Positions 9,914 through 33,182 of a DNA stretch of 34,569 bases are shown piece by piece. The notes below the pieces were generated by a model, which saw only the letters and a list, made by a program, of their open reading frames with translations, was not told the DNA's origin and made no database searches. The DNA is taken from the NCBI GenBank assembly GCA_024400565.1, contig JAKSMQ010000020.1, positions 1-34,569 of the forward strand, given 5' to 3'. Source of the stretch: Bacteroidales bacterium. GTDB lineage: Bacteria > Bacteroidota > Bacteroidia > Bacteroidales > P3. Within the stretch, counting starts at the first letter, position 1. Each line of letters starts with the position of its first letter. The translations under genes were made by a program, and so were the position numbers.

Positions 9914-12091
9914 TTAGAAGCTGTAGACCAGACGGCCCATAAAGTTGATGCCAGGCTGCTGGTACCAGCCGCAAGCGTGGTAGTGATCGTCGACGGCAGT
10001 GCCCCAATAGCCATCTTCGCACCATGCTCCAAGACGATAATGGTTGTCGAGTACGTTGTTAACGATAAGCTGAGCTTCGATCTTGTTGTTGTCGCGCAGA
10101 TTCCAGGTGTAGCCAGCCTTGAAGTTGAGAAGGAAGTAGGCATCCTGCTTGTAGATGTCGCGCGAGGTGTTGTCGAGATACATTGCACCGACATACTTGC
10201 CGATGAGCTGGAGTTTGAGGTTCTTCCAGGGAGTAAAGGTTGCAATGGCAGCACCAATTACGTCGGGAGAGTATGCCAGGTTAGTATTGGAAACGATAGT
10301 GTCGAGTTCGCTTATGCCATCGCTGAAATCGGTGTACATATAGTCCACAATCTTGTTGGTGGAAAGAGTCAGGTTAGCATCGATCTTGAACCAGTCGGTT
10401 ACCTTGTAGCCACCCACGAGTTCGATACCCAGACGGTAGCTCTTGTCTACATTCTCCATAAGGGCATAACCGCTCGAGCTTACGTCGCCGCTGGGGGTGA
10501 GCTGGTCTTTGTAGAGCATAGCATATCCGTTGACATTGAAGCTCCAGCGGCTCTTCTGGATCTGATAGCCAAGCTCAATGTCGAGCATCGATTCAGCCTT
10601 GATGGTGTCGCCGTTACCGATAGCGTCCTTGATGTCGGCACGTGCAGGCTCGCGGTTGGAGATACCTGCTACGAAATACATGCGCTGGTTGTCGTTCATG
10701 CGGTAGTTGAGACCTGCTTTGGGGTTGAAGAATACATAGGTCTCGTTGAAGTCCATGTCGAACAGGTCGTCGGCATATCCCTTTACGGTATAGTCAACAA
10801 TGCGCAACTGAAGGTCGGCATAGATGTTGAAGTTGCGGCTGAAGTCGTAGTTGAGTCTTGCATAGGTGGTAGCATCGTATTTGTCGCCGGTATTGCGATA
10901 CCACTCGTAGGGGTTGGCGTCGAAGCCTGCAGAGTCCTTGCACCAGAGCACGCTACCGAAGTGATTGCCATTGTAGTACTGGAACATCTCGCCGAAGGAG
11001 AGGTTCAGGCTGGTACCCGTATAGTTGGCCGAGAGGTTAGCGGTATAGGCGCTGTTGTACATATTCTTGCTGGTGATGAAGTCGCTCTTGGTGGAACCGC
11101 TGCCTGCAAGAGTAAGGTCGTATTTATTGGCTTTCTTGCCAGCCTTGTACTGCTCGTAGAAGCCGTCGCCATGGGTAAAGTCGGCTACAGCCTGGAGGTT
11201 CCACGAGTCGCTGAGCATATAGTTCCAGTAGAGCTGATAGCGGCGCTGGTTGTAGTTGTCGCTCTCGTTGGGGTAATAATACACGTTGCCGAGTGCGTCG
11301 TAGTATTCACCTGCAGAGTTGTGGGTGGGGTCGGCATCGAGAACCGAAGCGTCCTCACCGTTCCAGGTAATACCGGTGTGCTGGTGGCCGATGATGACAA
11401 TAGCCTTGAGAAGCGAACGTTCGCCATAGTAGCTGCCGCTCATGTAGAGAGACTGCTGATCGGCAAAACCATTACGTATATAGCCGTCGGTAGTCTGACC
11501 TGTATAGCTCATATCGAACGAGAAACCCTTCCGGGAGATGCCCGTTCCGGCAGCCATGCCAAACACGCGGGTGTTCCAGCTGCCCAGGGTGAGCTCGGCC
11601 GAGCCGTAGGGTCTGTACTGAAAATTGAGGGTCTGCATATTGATAGCGCCACCAAAGGCGGTACCACCGGTAGAAGCTCCGATACCACGCTGAATCTGAA
11701 TGTTCTGCGACATACCACCCAGGTTGGGAACATTGTACCAGAATACACCCTGGCTCTCGGCATCGTTGAGCGTGATGCCATTGATATTGACATTGATACG
11801 GGTAGCGTCTACGCCACGGATGCGCATCGAAGTCTCGCCCATCTTGCCGTTCTCGCCGGTAACGACTACCGAAGGCTGGGTCTCGAGCATATAGGGAACG
11901 CTCACCTCGGATTTGGCGTCCTGAATCTGACTCTGGTTAATGTTGGTAGTGGTGAGAGGGGCCTTGTTGCTTACGCGCGAAGCATTGATGATTACATCAT
12001 TCAGCACCTTCACGGTGTCTTGTGCCATTGCGCCAGCCGTGCACAGCAGACAGGTGGCGATAGCAGCCATTTTTCGGATGTTTAAAAACAT
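9914..12091 (-). CDS. TonB-dependent outer-membrane thiamine receptor
   Basis: 725 residues from the ATG at 12091 (MFLNIRKMAAIATCLLC...AMAQ); an ATG at 12118 adds nine polar residues before the signal peptide and is less likely. After the signal peptide (Gln at +1) come a TonB-box-like segment, a plug domain (about 30-150) with MRIRGVDATRINVNINGI, and a 22-strand barrel ending in the aromatic LVYSF C-terminus typical of outer-membrane proteins. No carboxypeptidase-like N-terminal domain or SusD partner is present, so it resembles vitamin receptors rather than glycan SusC. The substrate is inferred as thiamine from the TPP riboswitch and the downstream pnuT and TPK genes. Confidence 0.92.
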   Translation of the reverse strand: MFLNIRKMAAIATCLLCTAGAMAQDTVKVLNDVIINASRVSNKAPLTTTNINQSQIQDAKSEVSVPYMLETQPSVVVTGENGKMGETSMRIRGVDATRINVNINGITLNDAESQGVFWYNVPNLGGMSQNIQIQRGIGASTGGTAFGGAINMQTLNFQYRPYGSAELTLGSWNTRVFGMAAGTGISRKGFSFDMSYTGQTTDGYIRNGFADQQSLYMSGSYYGERSLLKAIVIIGHQHTGITWNGEDASVLDADPTHNSAGEYYDALGNVYYYPNESDNYNQRRYQLYWNYMLSDSWNLQAVADFTHGDGFYEQYKAGKKANKYDLTLAGSGSTKSDFITSKNMYNSAYTANLSANYTGTSLNLSFGEMFQYYNGNHFGSVLWCKDSAGFDANPYEWYRNTGDKYDATTYARLNYDFSRNFNIYADLQLRIVDYTVKGYADDLFDMDFNETYVFFNPKAGLNYRMNDNQRMYFVAGISNREPARADIKDAIGNGDTIKAESMLDIELGYQIQKSRWSFNVNGYAMLYKDQLTPSGDVSSSGYALMENVDKSYRLGIELVGGYKVTDWFKIDANLTLSTNKIVDYMYTDFSDGISELDTIVSNTNLAYSPDVIGAAIATFTPWKNLKLQLIGKYVGAMYLDNTSRDIYKQDAYFLLNFKAGYTWNLRDNNKIEAQLIVNNVLDNHYRLGAWCEDGYWGTAVDDHYHACGWYQQPGINFMGRLVYSF

Positions 12092-12167
12092 AATAGTTTT
12101 TGTTTTGTTGTTTAACAATTAGGTATTAAAAAAACAAAAACAGGGCAAATACTTATTGAAAAGACTC

Positions 12168-12243
12168 TATTTCCTACGCCGGCATTACCCGGATCAGGTT
12201 CAAGGGTATAATCTCAGCCACAACGATTTGTAGCACCCCGTTT
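12168..12243 (-). promoter_or_regulatory. TPP riboswitch (THI element)
   Basis: On the minus strand all conserved blocks occur in order: CGGGGTGCTA (about 12231-12240), GGCTGAGA (about 12212-12219), TACCC, GAACCTGATC (12192-12201), GGGTAATGCC (12181-12190) and CGTAGGAA. A short hairpin (CTCGG...CCGAG, 12247-12269) precedes it. TPP binding should lower expression of the receptor, pnuT and TPK genes. The riboswitch ends about 77 nt before the start codon in AT-rich leader; I see no obvious terminator stem there, so control of translation is possible. Confidence 0.97.
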
Positions 12244-12271
12244 GGTCTCGGATGTCTCTCGAAACCGAGTG

Positions 12272-12371: not shown

Positions 12372-12512
12372 CTCGGCCCACTCTCGGCCTAGCCTCGGTA
12401 TAGCGTCCACTTTCGATCCTCCCGACCGACGCTAGGTGGACGCTATATGGACGCTAGGTGGAGGCTATATGGACGCTAGGTGGAGGCTATATGGACGCTA
12501 GGAGGAGTCTAT
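12372..12512. repeat. 11-bp-period array with inverted left arm (locus C)
   Basis: Right arm: eight consecutive units from 12428 (12428, 12439, 12450, 12461, 12472, 12483, 12494, 12505), alternating GACGCTAGGTG and GASGCTATATG, so a 22-bp higher-order repeat. Left arm: CTCGG recurs at 12372, 12383 and 12394, also 11 bp apart, leading into TATAGCGTCCAC (12399-12410), the exact reverse complement of GTGGACGCTATA (12437-12448). It is gene-free. The open frame at 12458-12790 runs through this and the next repeat and is not credible. Confidence 0.9.
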
Positions 12513-12578
12513 GCAGGCAACCTCCCAGGAGGGCTGCTCCGCCGTCGGAGGTCCGTTCCTTCACCCCCTCCCATAGGG

Positions 12579-12727
12579 CATCTCTTCGCTGCTTTTTCGA
12601 TAAAAGAGCGAGCAACAGCGAGCCGACAGCGTATGGACAAGAACGGGATGTCCTAGGAGCGGCGGAGGGGAGGCGAAGAGGCGGCGAAGAAGATACGGAG
12701 GAGATACGGCGGATCTGTTACCCGAAA
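12579..12727 (-). repeat. Dispersed intergenic repeat, copy B (inverted)
   Basis: Reverse complement of 278-426, 149 bp without gaps and with 8 mismatches. The 11-bp-phased tract appears here as CGRAG on the plus strand. It lies about 65 bp beyond the locus C array, in the same spacer (12280-12979), which contains no gene. Confidence 0.9.
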
Positions 12728-19681: not shown

Positions 19682-21574
19682 TTATTCGGTGGCTGGAGCA
19701 GGGGCTGCAGCTGTGGTTTTTGTTTTCTTCTTGGTCGGTTTCTTTTTGGAAACCCTGGTCAGGGGGAGTCTCTGGCAGGGGTTGCTCTGCTGGTAGAGTC
19801 GGGCCTGTTCGGCGCGAACCTCGCCTTTGATATATTTCTCAACCACAAGGCCTGCAATAGGAGCCGCCCAGGTACCGCCAGGGCCTGCATTCTCTACATA
19901 CACAGCTACGGCTATCTTGGGATTGTCCATAGGCGCAAAGCAGATGAATACTGAGTGGTCTATACCATAGTTCTGGGCCGTGCCTGTTTTGCCGCAGATG
20001 GTAATTCCGGGCACCTGTGCCTTATGGCCCGTACCGCCTTCGCCATAAACAACATCGTGCATGCCTCGGGCGCAGACATCAAAATAACGCGATTCTATAC
20101 CCGTCTCGTGACGTGTGTAGAATTCCTCGTTGCGTGTGGAGTCCTTGCCATAGTAGCGTACCACATGGGGGGTGAAATAATAGCCCCTGTTGGCAACAAT
20201 ACAGGCCAGGTTGGCCATCTGAAGAGGAATAACCTCAACCTCTCCCTGTCCGATACTGTTGGAGTAGATGGTTCCGAAAGCCCATTTGTTCTCGCCATAC
20301 CATCGGTTGTAGAAGGCTGTGTCGGGGATGTTGCCCTTGTTGACATTAGGCAGGTCGATAGGCAGACGTTTGCCAAAACCGAACCGGCTCATATACTGAT
20401 CCCAGACGGTAAGACCATACTGGCTGTCTTTATAGATGTTCTTATACTTGCCTTGCTGGATAACCCTACGGTAGCTGAAGTAGAAATAGGGGTTGCAGCT
20501 ATGCATAATGGCCGACTGAACCGACCCTGCGCTGGGATGATTGTGACAGCCTACCTTGCTCTTGTCGCACATAAATCCTGTTCCGGGGCTGATTGCTCCC
20601 AACTGGAGGGCTGTGGCTGCCTGGGCTACCTTGAAAATACTTCCCGGAGGATATTTGGCCTGTAGGGCTCGGTTGAATAGGGGTTTGCGGATATCCTTGG
20701 CAAGATTGGCATAATTCTCGCCACGCACACGGCCAACAAGCATATTGGGGTCGTAGCAGGGAGCGCTTACAAGCGTAAGGACCTCGCCGGTGGCAGGTTC
20801 AATAGCAACGATACATCCTCTCTTATTGCCCATTAACCTCTCGCAGAATGCCTGCAACTCTGAGTCAATAGTTGTGTAGAGGTTTGCTCCTTCTGTAGCA
20901 ATACTGTCGAAAGCTCCATTCTGGTAAGAGCCAATCTGCCGGTTGTGTACGTCGACCTGCATCACCTTGCAGCCTTTTACGCCACGAAGCATCTCTTCAT
21001 AAGAGAGTTCCAGACCGCTGCGGCCGATATAGTCGCCTCGCTGGTAGTACTGGTTCTCTTCGAGATCCTTCTCGTTGACCTCTCCAACATAGCCCAAGAC
21101 GTGGGCCGCTATGGGTTTGTCGTAAACGCGTAGACTTCGCTGGGAGATATAGAAGCCGGGAAACTTGTACAGTCGGTTCTGCCAACGGGCATAGTCCTGC
21201 ATGCTAATCTGCTTCATGAATATGGACGAGGTGAAACGCGAGTATTTGCGGGCCTTCTCCATACGTTCGGTAAAGTCAGACATCTCTATGCCTATCATCT
21301 TGCAGAAATAGACGCTGTCCATGTCCTTGGCGAGCTTGGGGATAACCATCAGGTCGTATACAGCCTCGTTGTGAACAAGCAGGTCTCCATTACGGTCGTA
21401 GATAAGACCACGGGCAGGGTATTGGGTGATGTTACGCAAGGCCTGACGCTCGGCACGTTCTTTGTAGTCGTTGTTGAATATCTGCAGTACAGCAAGCCTA
21501 ATAATGAAAAGCACACCCACTATCATAAAGATGAGTTGGATGGTAAATGCTCTGTTTTTAAATTGATTAGACAT
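19682..21574 (-). CDS. mrdA: Penicillin-binding protein 2 (elongation transpeptidase)
   Basis: 630 residues. One N-terminal membrane helix (about 10-30), the PBP dimerisation/pedestal domain, then a transpeptidase domain with S312-I-F-K315, S359-C-N361 and K529-T-G531. It crosslinks glycan strands made by RodA in the periplasm. The C-terminal tail is Lys/Thr/Ala/Pro-rich (KKKPTKKKTKTTAAAPAPATE), a low-complexity extension. First gene of the mrdA-rodA-clpX transcript, with a TATCTTTG box 37 bp upstream. mreBCD are not adjacent in this window. Confidence 0.96.
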   Translation of the reverse strand: MSNQFKNRAFTIQLIFMIVGVLFIIRLAVLQIFNNDYKERAERQALRNITQYPARGLIYDRNGDLLVHNEAVYDLMVIPKLAKDMDSVYFCKMIGIEMSDFTERMEKARKYSRFTSSIFMKQISMQDYARWQNRLYKFPGFYISQRSLRVYDKPIAAHVLGYVGEVNEKDLEENQYYQRGDYIGRSGLELSYEEMLRGVKGCKVMQVDVHNRQIGSYQNGAFDSIATEGANLYTTIDSELQAFCERLMGNKRGCIVAIEPATGEVLTLVSAPCYDPNMLVGRVRGENYANLAKDIRKPLFNRALQAKYPPGSIFKVAQAATALQLGAISPGTGFMCDKSKVGCHNHPSAGSVQSAIMHSCNPYFYFSYRRVIQQGKYKNIYKDSQYGLTVWDQYMSRFGFGKRLPIDLPNVNKGNIPDTAFYNRWYGENKWAFGTIYSNSIGQGEVEVIPLQMANLACIVANRGYYFTPHVVRYYGKDSTRNEEFYTRHETGIESRYFDVCARGMHDVVYGEGGTGHKAQVPGITICGKTGTAQNYGIDHSVFICFAPMDNPKIAVAVYVENAGPGGTWAAPIAGLVVEKYIKGEVRAEQARLYQQSNPCQRLPLTRVSKKKPTKKKTKTTAAAPAPATE

Positions 21575-21610: not shown

Positions 21611-21644
21611 CAAAGATACAATTTTTTATTAAAATACGCGCAAC
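21611..21644 (-). promoter_or_regulatory. Promoter of the mrdA-rodA operon
   Basis: On the minus strand the minus-7 box is TATCTTTG (21611-21618); at the expected upstream spacing (22 bp) there is GTTG (21641-21644), a one-base variant of the minus-33 TTTG. The transcript would start about 30 bp before the ATG. Confidence 0.65.
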
Positions 21645-21701
21645 TATGTTTGATATTAATATAATAATTGCTCCTTCAGGTATGATTTAGCGTATGTTTT
21701 T

Positions 21702-21869
21702 GCGTCCATATATCGTCCACTTATTGCCCACATAGAGTCCACTTAGCGTCTATATAGCGTCCACATTGGGTCCACTCATCCTCATCCATTTTATTCAAAA
21801 GTCGAAGCTATGTGGAGTCTATGTGGAGTCTATATGGAGTTTATATGGAGCCTAAGTGGAGTTAATGAG
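21702..21869. repeat. Double-armed 11-bp-period array (locus D)
   Basis: Left arm: seven consecutive 11-bp units from 21702 to 21778 with consensus GCGTCCACWTA. Right arm: six consecutive units from 21804 to 21869 with consensus GAGTCTATRTG, broadly the reverse complement of the left arm. The spacer between arms is 25 bp. The right-arm unit is the same word family as GACGCTATATG of locus C. It lies upstream of the mrdA promoter and after the nrdJ terminator, with no gene in 21575-22081. Confidence 0.9.
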
Positions 21870-21987
21870 GCTCTTTACCAATTCTGGATGCTGGCCAGAT
21901 AGAATTGGATTCCTTACAGGATTGTTTTTCTTGCGGACTATCTATGTGTGTTGTTGGCTGTTAGAAATCGTGATAAATCCAAAATAA

Positions 21988-22013
21988 AGTACCTCCCCCT
22001 AAAGGGAGGCACT
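21988..22013 (-). terminator. Intrinsic terminator of nrdJ
   Basis: AGTACCTCCC pairs with GGGAGGCACT (10-bp stem, one mismatch, 6-base loop). On the minus strand it is followed by TTTATTTTGG. It lies about 70 bp after the nrdJ stop codon. Confidence 0.8.
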
Positions 22014-22081
22014 TCGCGTATAATATCAAAATTACAAAAGTGTTGGCGTATCGCTACGCCTATAGTGAAGTAAATGTTTTT

Positions 22082-24820
22082 CTAACTGCATTTGCTCCAT
22101 CCGCAGTTGGGGCAACTCTTGCAACCGCCTGAATATACGAGCTTACCACCACAGTCGGGGCAGACTTCTCCGGTCTCGGTACCATCCTTGATGTAGCGTT
22201 TGAGGGCGCGGGCTACACCATTCTTCCAGGTAGTAATGCTGTCTTCGTCGAAGTTGAGCTTGCTGATAAGGTCAACAACATTTGGGATAGGCATACCCTG
22301 ACGCAATACTCCGCTGATGAGTTTGGCATAGTTCCAATATTCCTGTTTGAAGGTACGGGAAAGACCTTCCATGGTTACCTTATATCCGTCGGGATCAATG
22401 TATTGGAAATCGTAGCGGGCGTGTTCGTCGCCTTGTTCCTTAACTCGGATTACAAAACCCTTTTCAACCCAATTGGGGAGTACGAAATTGTGTGCTCGGC
22501 CGGTAAAGATCTCATAGGGACGATGTTCGTACATACCTACGAATGCAATCCAGTCTTCTTTGTTGTTCTTGAATCGGAGTACTTCGCACTCGAGTTTCTT
22601 GGGACGTTTAGGTGCCTTGGTTTCAGCAAAATGGCCTTCTTTATCTTTGTCTTTGCCTTCGCTGGTACTTACAAGAACTCCGGTACGGGAACCGTCACGA
22701 TAGATGGTACAGCCTTTGCAACCAGATTCCCAAGCAGTCTTGTAGATTGTGCTTACTATCTCTTTCGTAGTCTCCTTGGGAATATTTACGGTTACACTAA
22801 TTGAATGGTCTACCCATTTTTGGATAGCTCCCTGCATTTTTACCTTGTTGACCCAGTCAATATCGGCTGAAGTTGCTTTGAAATAGGGCGACTGTTCAAT
22901 AATCTTATTGAGATCGCTATCTTTCATAGCCATAACCTCTTCAACATTGTAGTTGTTGATTCGGAGCCAATCTATAAACTTGGGATGGAAGACGTTGTAC
23001 TCTTCGAAATAATCTCCGTTCTCGTCGCGGATAATTTTATGTCTGGAGTTGTCTTTGTCGTTGGGGTTGATTTTCTTACGGCGCTTGTAAGATACGAGGA
23101 ATACGGGTTCGATACCAGAGGTGGTCTGAGTACAGATACTTACAGTACCCGTGGGAGCGATGGTAAGAAGGGCAATATTGCGGCGGCCCACCTGGGTCAT
23201 ACGTTTGTAGAGTTCAGGCTCTGCCTCGGCAATACGTTTTATTATAGGATTGTTTTTCTCTCGTTTTGCATCATAGATGGGGAATGCGCCACGTTCTTCT
23301 GCCATCTGAACAGAGCTGCCGTAAGCGGCACATGCGAGGGTCTGGTGAACGCGTACGGAGAAGTTGATTGCCTCTTCGCTACCATAGCGCAGACCCATAG
23401 CAGCAAGCATATCGCCTTCTGCTGTAATACCAAAACCGGTACGACGTCCTTCGAGGCATTTCATCTTGATATTGAGCCAGAGATTCTTCTCAACGCTCTT
23501 TATTTCGTCGCTTTCGGGGTCTGATTCTATTTTCTTGAGAATCATATCAACCTTCTCCAGTTCGAGGTCAATAAGGTCGTCCATCAGGCGCTGGCCTTTG
23601 AAGACGTGGAGGCGGAAGAGGTCGAAATCAAATTCTGCATCCTTTGTAAAGGGATTCTTTACATAACTGTAGAGGTTGATGGCCTGGAGACGGCAGCTGT
23701 CGTAGGGGCAGAGGGGAATCTCTCCGCAAGGGTTGGTGCTGACGGTAGTATAACCGAAATCGGAGTAGCAGTCAGGAACGGATTCTCGGATGATAGTATC
23801 CCAGAATAGTACACCAGGCTCGGCACTTTGCCATGCATTGGCAATAATCTTGTCCCAAAGTTTACGGGCATCAATTTTCTTGGTGACAGTAGGTTTGTCG
23901 CTATTGATTGGGTATTGCTGGATGAAAGGTTCGCCAGTTTCTACACAATGCATGAATTCGTCGGTAATCTTGACCGAAACGTTAGCTCCTGTAATCTTGC
24001 CCTGTTCCAGTTTGGCATCAATAAAGTCTTCTGAATTAGGGTGCTTTATAGAGATAGAAAGCATTAAGGCTCCGCGTCGGCCTCCCTGAGCCACCTCACG
24101 GGTGGTGTTGGAGAAACGCTCCATGAAGGGAACGATACCTGTAGAGGTAAGAGCGCTATTCTTGACAGGAGAGCCGCTGGGACGGATGTGCGAAAGATCA
24201 TGACCTACACCACCACGACGTTTCATCAGCTGTACCTGCTCCTGGTCGGTTTTCATAATTCCGCCATAGCTGTCACTTTGACCGTTGTTGCCAATTACGA
24301 AGCAGTTGGAAAGAGAAACAATCTGATAGTTGTTTCCAATACCCGACATAGGACTTCCCTGAGGAACAATGTAACGGAAATCTTTCATCAACTCGTAAAT
24401 CTCCTGTTCGGAGAGGGGATTGGGATATTTCTTTTCAATACGAGCAAATTCAGCTGCCATACGATGATGCATCATATCGGGATTGAGCTCAAAGATAGCA
24501 TCGTCGTTGCGGAGCGCATACTTGTTCATCCATACGTTGGCGGCCAGTTCATCACCACCAAAATACTCTACAGACGATTTCATGATTTCGTCCGTGGTGT
24601 AGTGCTTCTTTTCTTTCGGAGTTGACATCTTGTGAGGGTCGGTGCTTAATTCTTTTTCAGTTTCTTTTTTTTCAGGGGCGCTAACGGGGGTAGTTGTGGA
24701 AGTAGGGGTGGTCGTGGAGGTTCTTGTAGTTGTTGTCTTCGTTTTGCGAGACTTCTTGCTCTTGGTCTGCGAATTTTGGGAATATTCTTCTCCAAAATCT
24801 AAAAATAGGTCGGTCTGCAT
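22082..24820 (-). CDS. nrdJ: Adenosylcobalamin-dependent (class II) ribonucleotide reductase
   Basis: 912 residues. Reduces ribonucleotides to deoxyribonucleotides using adenosylcobalamin to make the thiyl radical, independent of oxygen. The barrel has SNCFVIGNNGQSDSYGG, MKRRGGVGHDLSHIRPSG and the active-site NPCGEIPLCPYDSCRL; the last 26 residues hold the C-terminal CPDCGG...CPNCGWSKC cysteines used for re-reduction or zinc binding. Residues about 15-55 are a low-complexity Lys/Thr/Pro linker, probably disordered. It is a single-gene unit with a terminator after it. A cobalamin adenosyltransferase is encoded 2 kb away. No cobalamin riboswitch is visible upstream. Confidence 0.95.
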   Translation of the reverse strand: MQTDLFLDFGEEYSQNSQTKSKKSRKTKTTTTRTSTTTPTSTTTPVSAPEKKETEKELSTDPHKMSTPKEKKHYTTDEIMKSSVEYFGGDELAANVWMNKYALRNDDAIFELNPDMMHHRMAAEFARIEKKYPNPLSEQEIYELMKDFRYIVPQGSPMSGIGNNYQIVSLSNCFVIGNNGQSDSYGGIMKTDQEQVQLMKRRGGVGHDLSHIRPSGSPVKNSALTSTGIVPFMERFSNTTREVAQGGRRGALMLSISIKHPNSEDFIDAKLEQGKITGANVSVKITDEFMHCVETGEPFIQQYPINSDKPTVTKKIDARKLWDKIIANAWQSAEPGVLFWDTIIRESVPDCYSDFGYTTVSTNPCGEIPLCPYDSCRLQAINLYSYVKNPFTKDAEFDFDLFRLHVFKGQRLMDDLIDLELEKVDMILKKIESDPESDEIKSVEKNLWLNIKMKCLEGRRTGFGITAEGDMLAAMGLRYGSEEAINFSVRVHQTLACAAYGSSVQMAEERGAFPIYDAKREKNNPIIKRIAEAEPELYKRMTQVGRRNIALLTIAPTGTVSICTQTTSGIEPVFLVSYKRRKKINPNDKDNSRHKIIRDENGDYFEEYNVFHPKFIDWLRINNYNVEEVMAMKDSDLNKIIEQSPYFKATSADIDWVNKVKMQGAIQKWVDHSISVTVNIPKETTKEIVSTIYKTAWESGCKGCTIYRDGSRTGVLVSTSEGKDKDKEGHFAETKAPKRPKKLECEVLRFKNNKEDWIAFVGMYEHRPYEIFTGRAHNFVLPNWVEKGFVIRVKEQGDEHARYDFQYIDPDGYKVTMEGLSRTFKQEYWNYAKLISGVLRQGMPIPNVVDLISKLNFDEDSITTWKNGVARALKRYIKDGTETGEVCPDCGGKLVYSGGCKSCPNCGWSKCS

Positions 24821-32156: not shown

Positions 32157-32308
32157 CTGTTTTTTATCTGTTTCGGCATTAAATAACGTTTCATGCCCGC
32201 GAATATTACATAGTAACGGAAATTTTATTTTTTTGGTATGTCAAGATGAAAAAAACACTCTTCTCATCTCTTATTCTCCCCCTGGGCTGCGTATAAACAC
32301 CCTATTGC

Positions 32309-32406
32309 CTCCACATAGGCTCCACGCAGATTCGCAAATCGATGGCCCATGCCGAGGCTGAGTGCTGCCTATGTGCTGTCTGTATGCTGCCTGAGTGCTG
32401 TCTTGG
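32309..32406. repeat. 11-bp-period array (locus E)
   Basis: Two left units CTCCACATAGG and CTCCACGCAGA (32309, 32320), then after a 10-bp gap six consecutive 11-mers from 32341 (gatggcccatg, ccgaggctgag, tgctgcctatg, tgctgtctgta, tgctgcctgag, tgctgtcttgg). The left units are the reverse complement of CCTATGTGGAG, the word found at loci C and D. It lies in the spacer between ctpA and the 32429 gene. Confidence 0.8.
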
Positions 32407-33036: not shown

Positions 33037-33116
33037 ATTTATTTTAACATTTTCGGGTCCCAGCATCTTGGCCGACAGAACGGGGTAAGGACCATGGCCA
33101 TTTCATTTCTTTACCT

Positions 33117-33182
33117 TTCGGCCACCCTTCGGCCTGGGTTCGGCCTGGGTTCGGCCACCATTGCCCTAGGATTGATGGTCCA
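33117..33182. repeat. 11-bp-period array (locus F)
   Basis: Six consecutive 11-mers: tttcggccacc, cttcggcctgg, gttcggcctgg, gttcggccacc, attgccctagg, attgatggtcc. The TCGGCCTRG word also occurs in the left arm of locus C. The adjoining 33183-33538 contains no credible gene: a plus-strand frame at 33189-33407 has no family resemblance. Confidence 0.8.

Follow-up and report, generated by a model that had tools for sequence, protein, structure and literature searches.

Between mrdA and nrdJ on a contig of a Bacteroidales bacterium (GenBank assembly GCA_024400565.1, contig JAKSMQ010000020.1) lies an intergenic array of 11-bp units, arranged in two arms at positions 21702–21869, and the question raised by this locus is what keeps its period while its units differ in sequence. 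We analysed the whole stretch of 34,569 nucleotides that contains the array (referred to here as the window), further stretches of the same genome, and sequences of its congeners. The genome of the window is a metagenome-assembled genome (MAG) of 1.894 Mb in 57 contigs, and the sampled part amounted to 791 kb (42%) including the window. The array appears to belong to a type of element that is found through much of an uncultured gut genus of Bacteroidales and that consists of two outward-pointing series of 11-bp units set on one continuous lattice around a short core. Our preferred reading, which we offer tentatively, is that it is one copy of a non-coding nucleoprotein lattice formed on duplex DNA at transcription-unit boundaries and bound by a putative protein.

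The first-pass annotation of this DNA had described seven left-arm and six right-arm units, all exactly 11 bp apart, and our analysis recovered the same arrangement (Table 1), with units that vary in word while the 11-bp period holds. Identity over positions 21702–21869 was 0.61 at lag 11, with values of 0.22 at lag 10, 0.18 at lag 12, 0.58 at lag 22, and 0.50 at lag 33. In 10,000 Markov shuffles of the target, the best identity at lags of 5 to 30 never exceeded 0.434; the shuffle check proposed earlier thus yielded no lag-11 signal as strong as that of the array, and many other arrays were found in the genome. Tandem Repeats Finder also assigned period 11 to both arms. The arms are broadly reverse complements, as had been noted, with a complementarity of 71–74% over 40–48 bp. 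A point absent from the first-pass annotation is that the gap between the arms of the target also lies on the 11-bp lattice, its 38 bp corresponding to 16 + 2 × 11.

The gap between the cores of the innermost reverse and forward units was 16, 27, 38, or 49 bp (16 + 11n) in all 36 two-armed loci of the sampled part of this genome, the target included, with 22 of these loci having been tabulated and the other 14, printed as being of mixed order, counted by us. In our reading, the gaps of 27, 38, and 49 bp often consist of a core of 16 bp to which degenerate units are added in register; by eye, the sequence of the core varies among elements, and its length is constant. Distances between units located with a weight matrix, with no assumption about phase, were counted as unit pairs, which are many per locus, come from approximately 50 loci, and are not independent events: of the reverse-to-forward distances up to 260 bp, 545 fell on residue 5 modulo 11 and 3 to 25 on each other residue, whereas same-strand distances gave 709 on residue 0 versus 9 to 26 on the others, and forward-to-reverse distances were flat (2 to 16 per residue). 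When the two arms are of different unit types, the phase is also kept (173 versus 0 to 7), and pairing is therefore not needed for it. With strong units only, 50 bins were on the lattice; a single array locus (L170:19176–19248) departed from it by 1 bp, and a further four pairs off the lattice seemed to be isolated matches. The 330 on-lattice units contained 305 mismatches to their nearest type over nine core positions and showed almost no loss of frame. Arms comprised 1 to 12 units, commonly 4 or 5. Given that the elements listed with coordinates were chosen as being on the lattice, the lattice claim rests on the gap, residue, cross-type, and strong-unit counts.

The words of the units turn over. 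The main unit types in the genome of the window are TGGACGCTATG and TGCTGTCTGTA, and unit words elsewhere include TTCTTCAGTAG, GGTAGGAGTTG, CGGTGCATGTA, and CTTGTACAGTA. The 159 arrays of this genome and its congeners fell into 35 word clusters, as defined by circular 11-mers that differ at at least four positions from the first member of each cluster. The phase lock was seen with other words in the congeners G023 (80 versus 1 to 16) and G009 (56 versus 0 to 3), as well as in pooled relatives with GGTAGG-type units (72 versus 0 to 7), a pool that contains G009 sequences and two loci of 98% identity and is not a separate species from G009. It was also present, in smeared form, in G012. The number of word clusters and the phase-keeping central gap give good support to the proposal of the first-pass annotation that selection or copying acts on the spacing and not on a single word. 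Given that words change by species while spacing and outward arms stay, something may read the spacing and not the letters. L045 and L048 are 84% identical, and in an orthologous spacer the alignment of their elements shows a gap of exactly 11 bp in the left arm and another in the right. Two spacers common to G002 and G009 carry inverted elements with different words, as judged by eye, and the second of these spacers contains approximately 1.8 kb of extra sequence in G009. A word or step common to all units was also sought, with only a mild excess being found (TA, 53 versus 42.6; AG, 69 versus 60.6).

Period 11 is the dominant short lag in this genome. In the 791 kb sampled, segments numbered 62 at lag 11, 48 at lag 22, and 27 at lag 33, compared with 1 at lag 10 and 7 at lag 12, and no segments were found at lags of 4 to 44 in shuffles of the first 402 kb. 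The pattern CTATRTGGASNCTA, with up to two mismatches, occurred at 234 + 251 places in the genome versus 53 + 65 for a reversed control. Its frequency in 24 congeners was at most two- to threefold above the control, with no rise in some, and among 16 genomes from other families nearly all had a frequency below the control. Lag-11 arrays were likewise absent from 632 kb of other families. When only arrays with a GC content of 35% or more were counted, 1956 kb of congener sequence, without the genome of the window, gave 69 segments at lag 11, 41 at lag 7, and no more than 20 at any other lag; before filtering, the figures were 97 at lag 7 versus 66 at lag 11. The sampled contigs of G003, G005, G008, G020, and G022 gave counts at all lags, probably as a result of runs of N, and N-containing arrays or contigs were filtered out of the congener array counts and of the cluster, intergenic, promoter, and divergent-spacer analyses. 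At least one array was present in 22 of 62 congener entries, many of which are only 6–14 kb long and some of which represent genomes entered twice, in addition to the genome of the window. The 7-bp tandem arrays of congeners (AAAGTTT, CACTTTC, and others, as at L048:5307–5365, L051:673–735, and L059:11384–11450) were intergenic in 67 of 105 cases, had an inverted partner in 9%, and had a GC content of 28%; we treated them as a class apart from the 11-bp arrays.

The complementarity of the arms suggests a hairpin or cruciform. Arms that pair in RNA could serve as a terminator, an attenuator, or an element of transcript stability, whereas pairing in DNA would give a cruciform that absorbs supercoils. 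The first-pass annotation had likewise suggested that a transcript could form a long hairpin. Folding of the target is indeed strong, with a z score of –4.48 for one strand and –3.65 for the other, and elements of G023, G016, and G004 also fold strongly. Moreover, an inverted partner with a score of at least 14 accompanied 41% of intergenic lag-11 arrays, whereas among 300 control pieces of spacer the figure was 6.7%. An initial arm-swap test was in favour of the arms of the same locus (0.71 versus 0.62 for swapped arms in the genome of the window, p = 0.0002; p = 0.005 in G023), but it was biased because the loci and their centres had been picked by their own complementarity. An unbiased swap over 22 loci reversed its conclusion for the genome of the window (16.0 for own arms, 16.56 for swapped arms, p = 0.64), and mismatches in this genome showed no bias toward G-U over A-C (18 versus 24). 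Arms thus do not co-vary by locus, and a pairing hairpin does not appear to be what is conserved in this genome. The A and B arms, moreover, keep phase even though their consensus units agree at only 5 of 11 positions, and a loop requires no 11-bp rule. We therefore consider pairing of the arms to be an improbable basis for the element.

The position of the arrays also bears on this issue. According to calls from a purpose-built gene finder, 142 of 145 lag-11 arrays were intergenic, and in 64 of 129 cases, versus 12.4 expected, the array was followed by a TAnnTTTG motif before the start codon. Among spacers of 120 to 1500 bp, arrays were found in 44 of 129 divergent, 45 of 341 codirectional, and 16 of 79 convergent spacers (44/129 for divergent versus 61/420 for the rest), and the divergent excess persisted after stratification by length (44 versus 26.4 expected, p = 0.0002). 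Negative supercoiling is expected in divergent spacers, and the enrichment there is in keeping with a cruciform; the location upstream of promoter motifs and the preference for divergent spacers argue against an RNA hairpin, and the terminator-like versions seen in L051 and other relatives (described below) argue for one. The arm that faces the downstream gene did not appear to be the longer one (mean of –1.7 units; 13 negative, 7 positive, and 2 zero among 22 loci).

The nucleoprotein reading is based on observed features: a strict period that holds whatever the word, a phase that is carried across the core, a polarity that does not vary, an intergenic location upstream of promoter motifs, and a bias toward divergent spacers. 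Given that period, polarity, and phase are conserved, the simplest reader would be a protein on duplex DNA that takes up one unit per turn. From these features we infer the protein, its binding to one face, the lack of transcription, and the boundary function. The candidate DNA-binding protein would contact a single face of the duplex, with one unit occupied at each helical turn, and its assembly would begin at the centre and proceed outward along both arms; the resulting nucleoprotein block might then provide insulation, absorption of supercoils, or anchoring of the nucleoid at the boundary. The 11-bp step is compatible, as far as sequence can indicate, with the earlier suggestion that the units are placed on one face of the helix. 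We would further suggest, guardedly, that geometry defines this class of element: a bipolar lattice with an 11-bp non-coding "reading frame" would be read by a genus-specific protein at transcription-unit boundaries, with words drifting freely within the limits of lattice, polarity, and core length.

Several findings weigh against a protein-bound lattice. In the 26 cases considered, the arrays showed no helical phasing with the promoter (Rayleigh p of approximately 0.49), a result that places the possible function at the boundary and not in activation. An 11.0-bp step drifts from the 10.5-bp repeat of B-form DNA over 15 units, and inheritance from a single ancestral palindrome could account for the phase lock. 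Several unrelated words occur within one genome, which is awkward for a single sequence-specific protein, and orthologous spacers often lack the element on one side (G001/G004 and L053/L059, as well as G012/G002 as judged by gap size). The phase lock was weak in G016 and G004, G014 provided too few pairs, and G001 showed nothing clear. Arms are strongly complementary in congeners such as G023, in which a 257-nt stretch folds to –161.4 kcal/mol, and terminator-like elements occur in relatives: spacer B of L051 ends in a T-rich run, and TTTTTT follows spacer A of L045, L048, and L051. Congeners also hold many 7-bp arrays, which points to a general abundance of short tandem repeats in the genus. 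The genome of the window is, in addition, a MAG of 71.6% completeness sampled to 42%. Finally, expansion of the HU-HIG family was considered as a source of the protein partner and was rejected, with an unremarkable 2 to 6 copies in 25 genomes of the genus versus 1 to 12 elsewhere.

The main rival to the nucleoprotein lattice is a satellite-like selfish or neutral DNA, which we regard as a serious though rather unlikely explanation. One ancestral two-armed 11-bp element would have spread through the genus, with period and centre being inherited; slippage and in-register conversion by whole units would homogenise and replace words, and the preference for untranscribed spacers would reflect tolerance. 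The changes in unit number by exactly 11 bp in both arms of the L045/L048 element fit this explanation, as do mosaic unit types, the gap-free matches in many registers among the matches listed for two window elements, and the different words in the orthologous G002/G009 spacers. Four near-perfect copies at L139:10295 of G001, which have no counterpart in the orthologous spacer of G004, and the concentration of arrays in one clade and scattered lineages (with labels taken from 6- to 14-kb loci) are also in its favour. Unconstrained DNA that no longer shows sequence similarity would, however, be expected to gain off-lattice indels, and cores that differ in sequence nevertheless leave the gaps at 16 + 11n in every two-armed locus, with a single off-lattice array locus and with mismatched units that almost never lose frame. 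Satellite inheritance thus explains the turnover of units well but does not explain an on-lattice gap length with changing core sequence.

The abundance of interspersed copies, as reflected in the excess of CTATRTGGASNCTA over its reversed control, together with orthologous sites that lack an element and a diverged paralogous pair (L128:10268 and L169:1956) with the same 49-bp gap, would fit a non-autonomous mobile element moved by a transposase, of the type of miniature inverted-repeat transposable elements (MITEs), BrickBuilt, or repetitive extragenic palindromes and bacterial interspersed mosaic elements (REP/BIME). Among the 59 of 1094 matches listed for two window elements, however, matches end at the arrays, with the sole match in flanking DNA being a 170-bp repeat described below. 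The spread over 35 word clusters also speaks against mobility. No match to the Y1 (RAYT) transposase was found in the 71.6%-complete genome of the window or in G016, both of which bear arrays, and a dependence of the arrays on RAYT was thus rejected; many congeners do have matches. We judge a mobile element to be distinctly unlikely. The two members of the paralogous pair, at L128:10224–10330 and L169:1905–2015, show no change in the length of the central gap, and by eye there is a difference of one unit between their right arms.

Arrays might also accumulate where SbcCD, a nuclease that cuts palindromes, has been lost. The genome of the window has no SbcD match and only a weak SbcC-profile match, and in pooled data without this genome, in which some genomes enter twice, SbcD-negative entries had 54 arrays in 1138 kb (15 of 31 entries) versus 14 arrays in 818 kb (7 of 31) for SbcD-positive entries. 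On a tree of mrdA, however, arrays clustered in one 17-row clade whatever the SbcD state (they were present in 4 of 6 SbcD-positive and 6 of 11 SbcD-negative rows), with these counts having been made by us from array labels set by hand from short loci, of which L045 fails a stricter filter. The genomes of L051, L052, and L058, labelled as lacking an array on the tree, bear arrays elsewhere. Moreover, nuclease loss leaves the period of 11 unexplained. Pooled rates thus fit this cause and the tree does not, and we regard it as very improbable. Of 25 genomes of the genus, eight had an SbcD match above cut-off, and in each of these eight a strong SbcC-profile match lay on the contig that carries SbcD; no SbcC-profile match was above the SbcC cut-off, and the remaining genomes had weak matches or none. 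L048 and L067 are 98% identical, yet their genomes differ in SbcD.

The first-pass annotation knew of no described element with this design, and the open-access literature in PubMed Central (PMC) does not contradict it, in that we found there no description of such an element. The parC site of plasmid R1 resembles the target in having two sets of 11-bp units, with a 22-bp fragment that corresponds to two iterons and is bound by ParR (PMC4949242). It is, however, a single plasmid centromere with one word, whereas 45 elements with several words were listed in 42% of the genome of the window; these elements are dispersed, and their arms are opposed around a core. Tandem sites of the OmpR/PhoB family comprise few units per promoter. 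They consist of 7-bp direct repeats with a 4-bp spacer, and so also have an 11-bp step (PMC4832192), whereas the arrays described here have 1 to 12 units in each of two opposed arms and are not phased with the promoter. BrickBuilt of Porphyromonas gingivalis is an intergenic minisatellite MITE repeated through a Bacteroidales genome, with a 23-nt unit in direct repeats, a leader and tail, IS5-type terminal repeats, and 19 copies (PMC4596501). Our arrays differ in their period of 11, with harmonics at 22 and 33, and no shared ends resembling a leader or tail were apparent among the 59 matches listed for two elements, with no dedicated search for terminal repeats or target duplications having been made. 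REP/BIME sequences show many mosaic copies with regular spacing and alternating orientation (PMC2817692), and REPs are palindromes of 20–40 bp (PMC3733652). They are associated with RAYT, whereas the units here, including both TGGACGCTATG and TGCTGTCTGTA, are 11 bp, non-palindromic, and placed on a strict lattice. The 11-bp AA/TT periodicity of bacterial genomes, which is near the helical repeat and is concentrated between genes in Escherichia coli (PMC516772, PMC4132750), is a statistical A/T signal and not a set of discrete arrays of similar 11-mers, which are not A-tracts. As far as we have seen, none of these systems combines spacing that is independent of the word with two opposed arms on a single lattice. 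If the lattice described here is read by a protein, it would represent a non-coding element that is conserved in phase and polarity while its sequence turns over, and that is invisible to homology searches, and the marking of transcription-unit boundaries and organisation of the nucleoid in Bacteroidales would become directly testable. Even a satellite-like origin would make it a bacterial satellite with a strict period of nearly one helical turn, a natural experiment on why a period is kept.

The genes named near the target array are mrdA, rodA, clpX, and nrdJ. The –7 element of mrdA is of the TAnnTTTG class, which we take to be a Bacteroidetes-type promoter. The 85-nt stretch that contains the likely nrdJ terminator has a folding energy of –32.7 kcal/mol, and given that this terminator-like hairpin and the mrdA promoter motif bracket the array, the latter is apparently outside both transcription units. 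An array upstream of mrdA is not a conserved arrangement: an 11- or 22-lag array was present in the corresponding spacer in only 4 of 42 relatives, among which the gene preceding the spacer differs in strand and length. The nearest relatives identified with mrdA are MAGs labelled Bacteroidales or Bacteroidetes, mostly with names that refer to the herbivore gut.

Table 1 Features of the target array, its flanking genes, and related elements in the window.
Feature	Position	Strand	Description
mrdA (penicillin-binding protein 2)	19682..21574	–	Downstream of array; TIGR03423, 502.5 bits (cut-off 455)
Promoter-like –7 element of mrdA	21611..21618	–	TATCTTTG within TTGTATCTTTGC; array end 80 bp upstream
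Left arm	21698..21774	–	Seven 11-bp units, reverse, type TGGACGCTATG; starts 21698, 21709, 21720, 21731, 21742, 21753, 21764
Possible eighth left unit	21775..21785	–	CTCATCCTCAT, degenerate, in register; our reading of the 38-bp gap as 11 + 16 + 11
Central core	21786..21801		16 bp; sequence not common to other listed elements (by eye)
Right arm	21802..21867	+	Six 11-bp units, the first degenerate (TCGAAGCTATG); starts 21802, 21813, 21824, 21835, 21846, 21857
Likely intrinsic terminator of nrdJ	21986..22015	–	13-pair stem, then T-rich stretch; array downstream of terminator
nrdJ (adenosylcobalamin-dependent ribonucleotide reductase)	22082..24820	–	Upstream of array; TIGR02504, 550.1 bits (cut-off 399.95)
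Second family element	12399..12513		Reverse unit 12399–12409; 27-bp gap (core 12410–12425 plus degenerate unit); forward units 12437–12513; divergent spacer
Third family element	32303..32406		Reverse units at 32303 and 32314; 38-bp gap; forward units of second type (TGCTGTCTGTA) from 32363

The same word family had been reported at positions 12428–12512, and we found it there with a reverse unit in addition (Table 1). Other repeats in the window include a separate interspersed repeat of approximately 170 bp, located at 278–447 (– strand) and 12558–12727 (+ strand) and also at L159:9845–10014 and L156:16644–16832; its copies are 76–92% identical to that at 12558 and contain 11-bp-period stretches of their own (GGCGGCGAAGA, GATACGGAGGA). 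At the start of the contig, positions 1–271 hold two tandem copies of a unit of approximately 136 bp, in which inverted arms rich in AT and a period of 11 bp are seen (ATAATTCATGG), and an 11-bp array of TTCGGCCTGGG lies at 33113–33156 within a long spacer. A scan of the window at Rfam gathering thresholds gave no match for the target array, with the sole match being a thiamine pyrophosphate (TPP) riboswitch at 12154–12250 (RF00059, 62.5 bits). This riboswitch lies upstream of a TonB-dependent receptor-like gene at 9914–12118 (– strand), which shows weak family matches.
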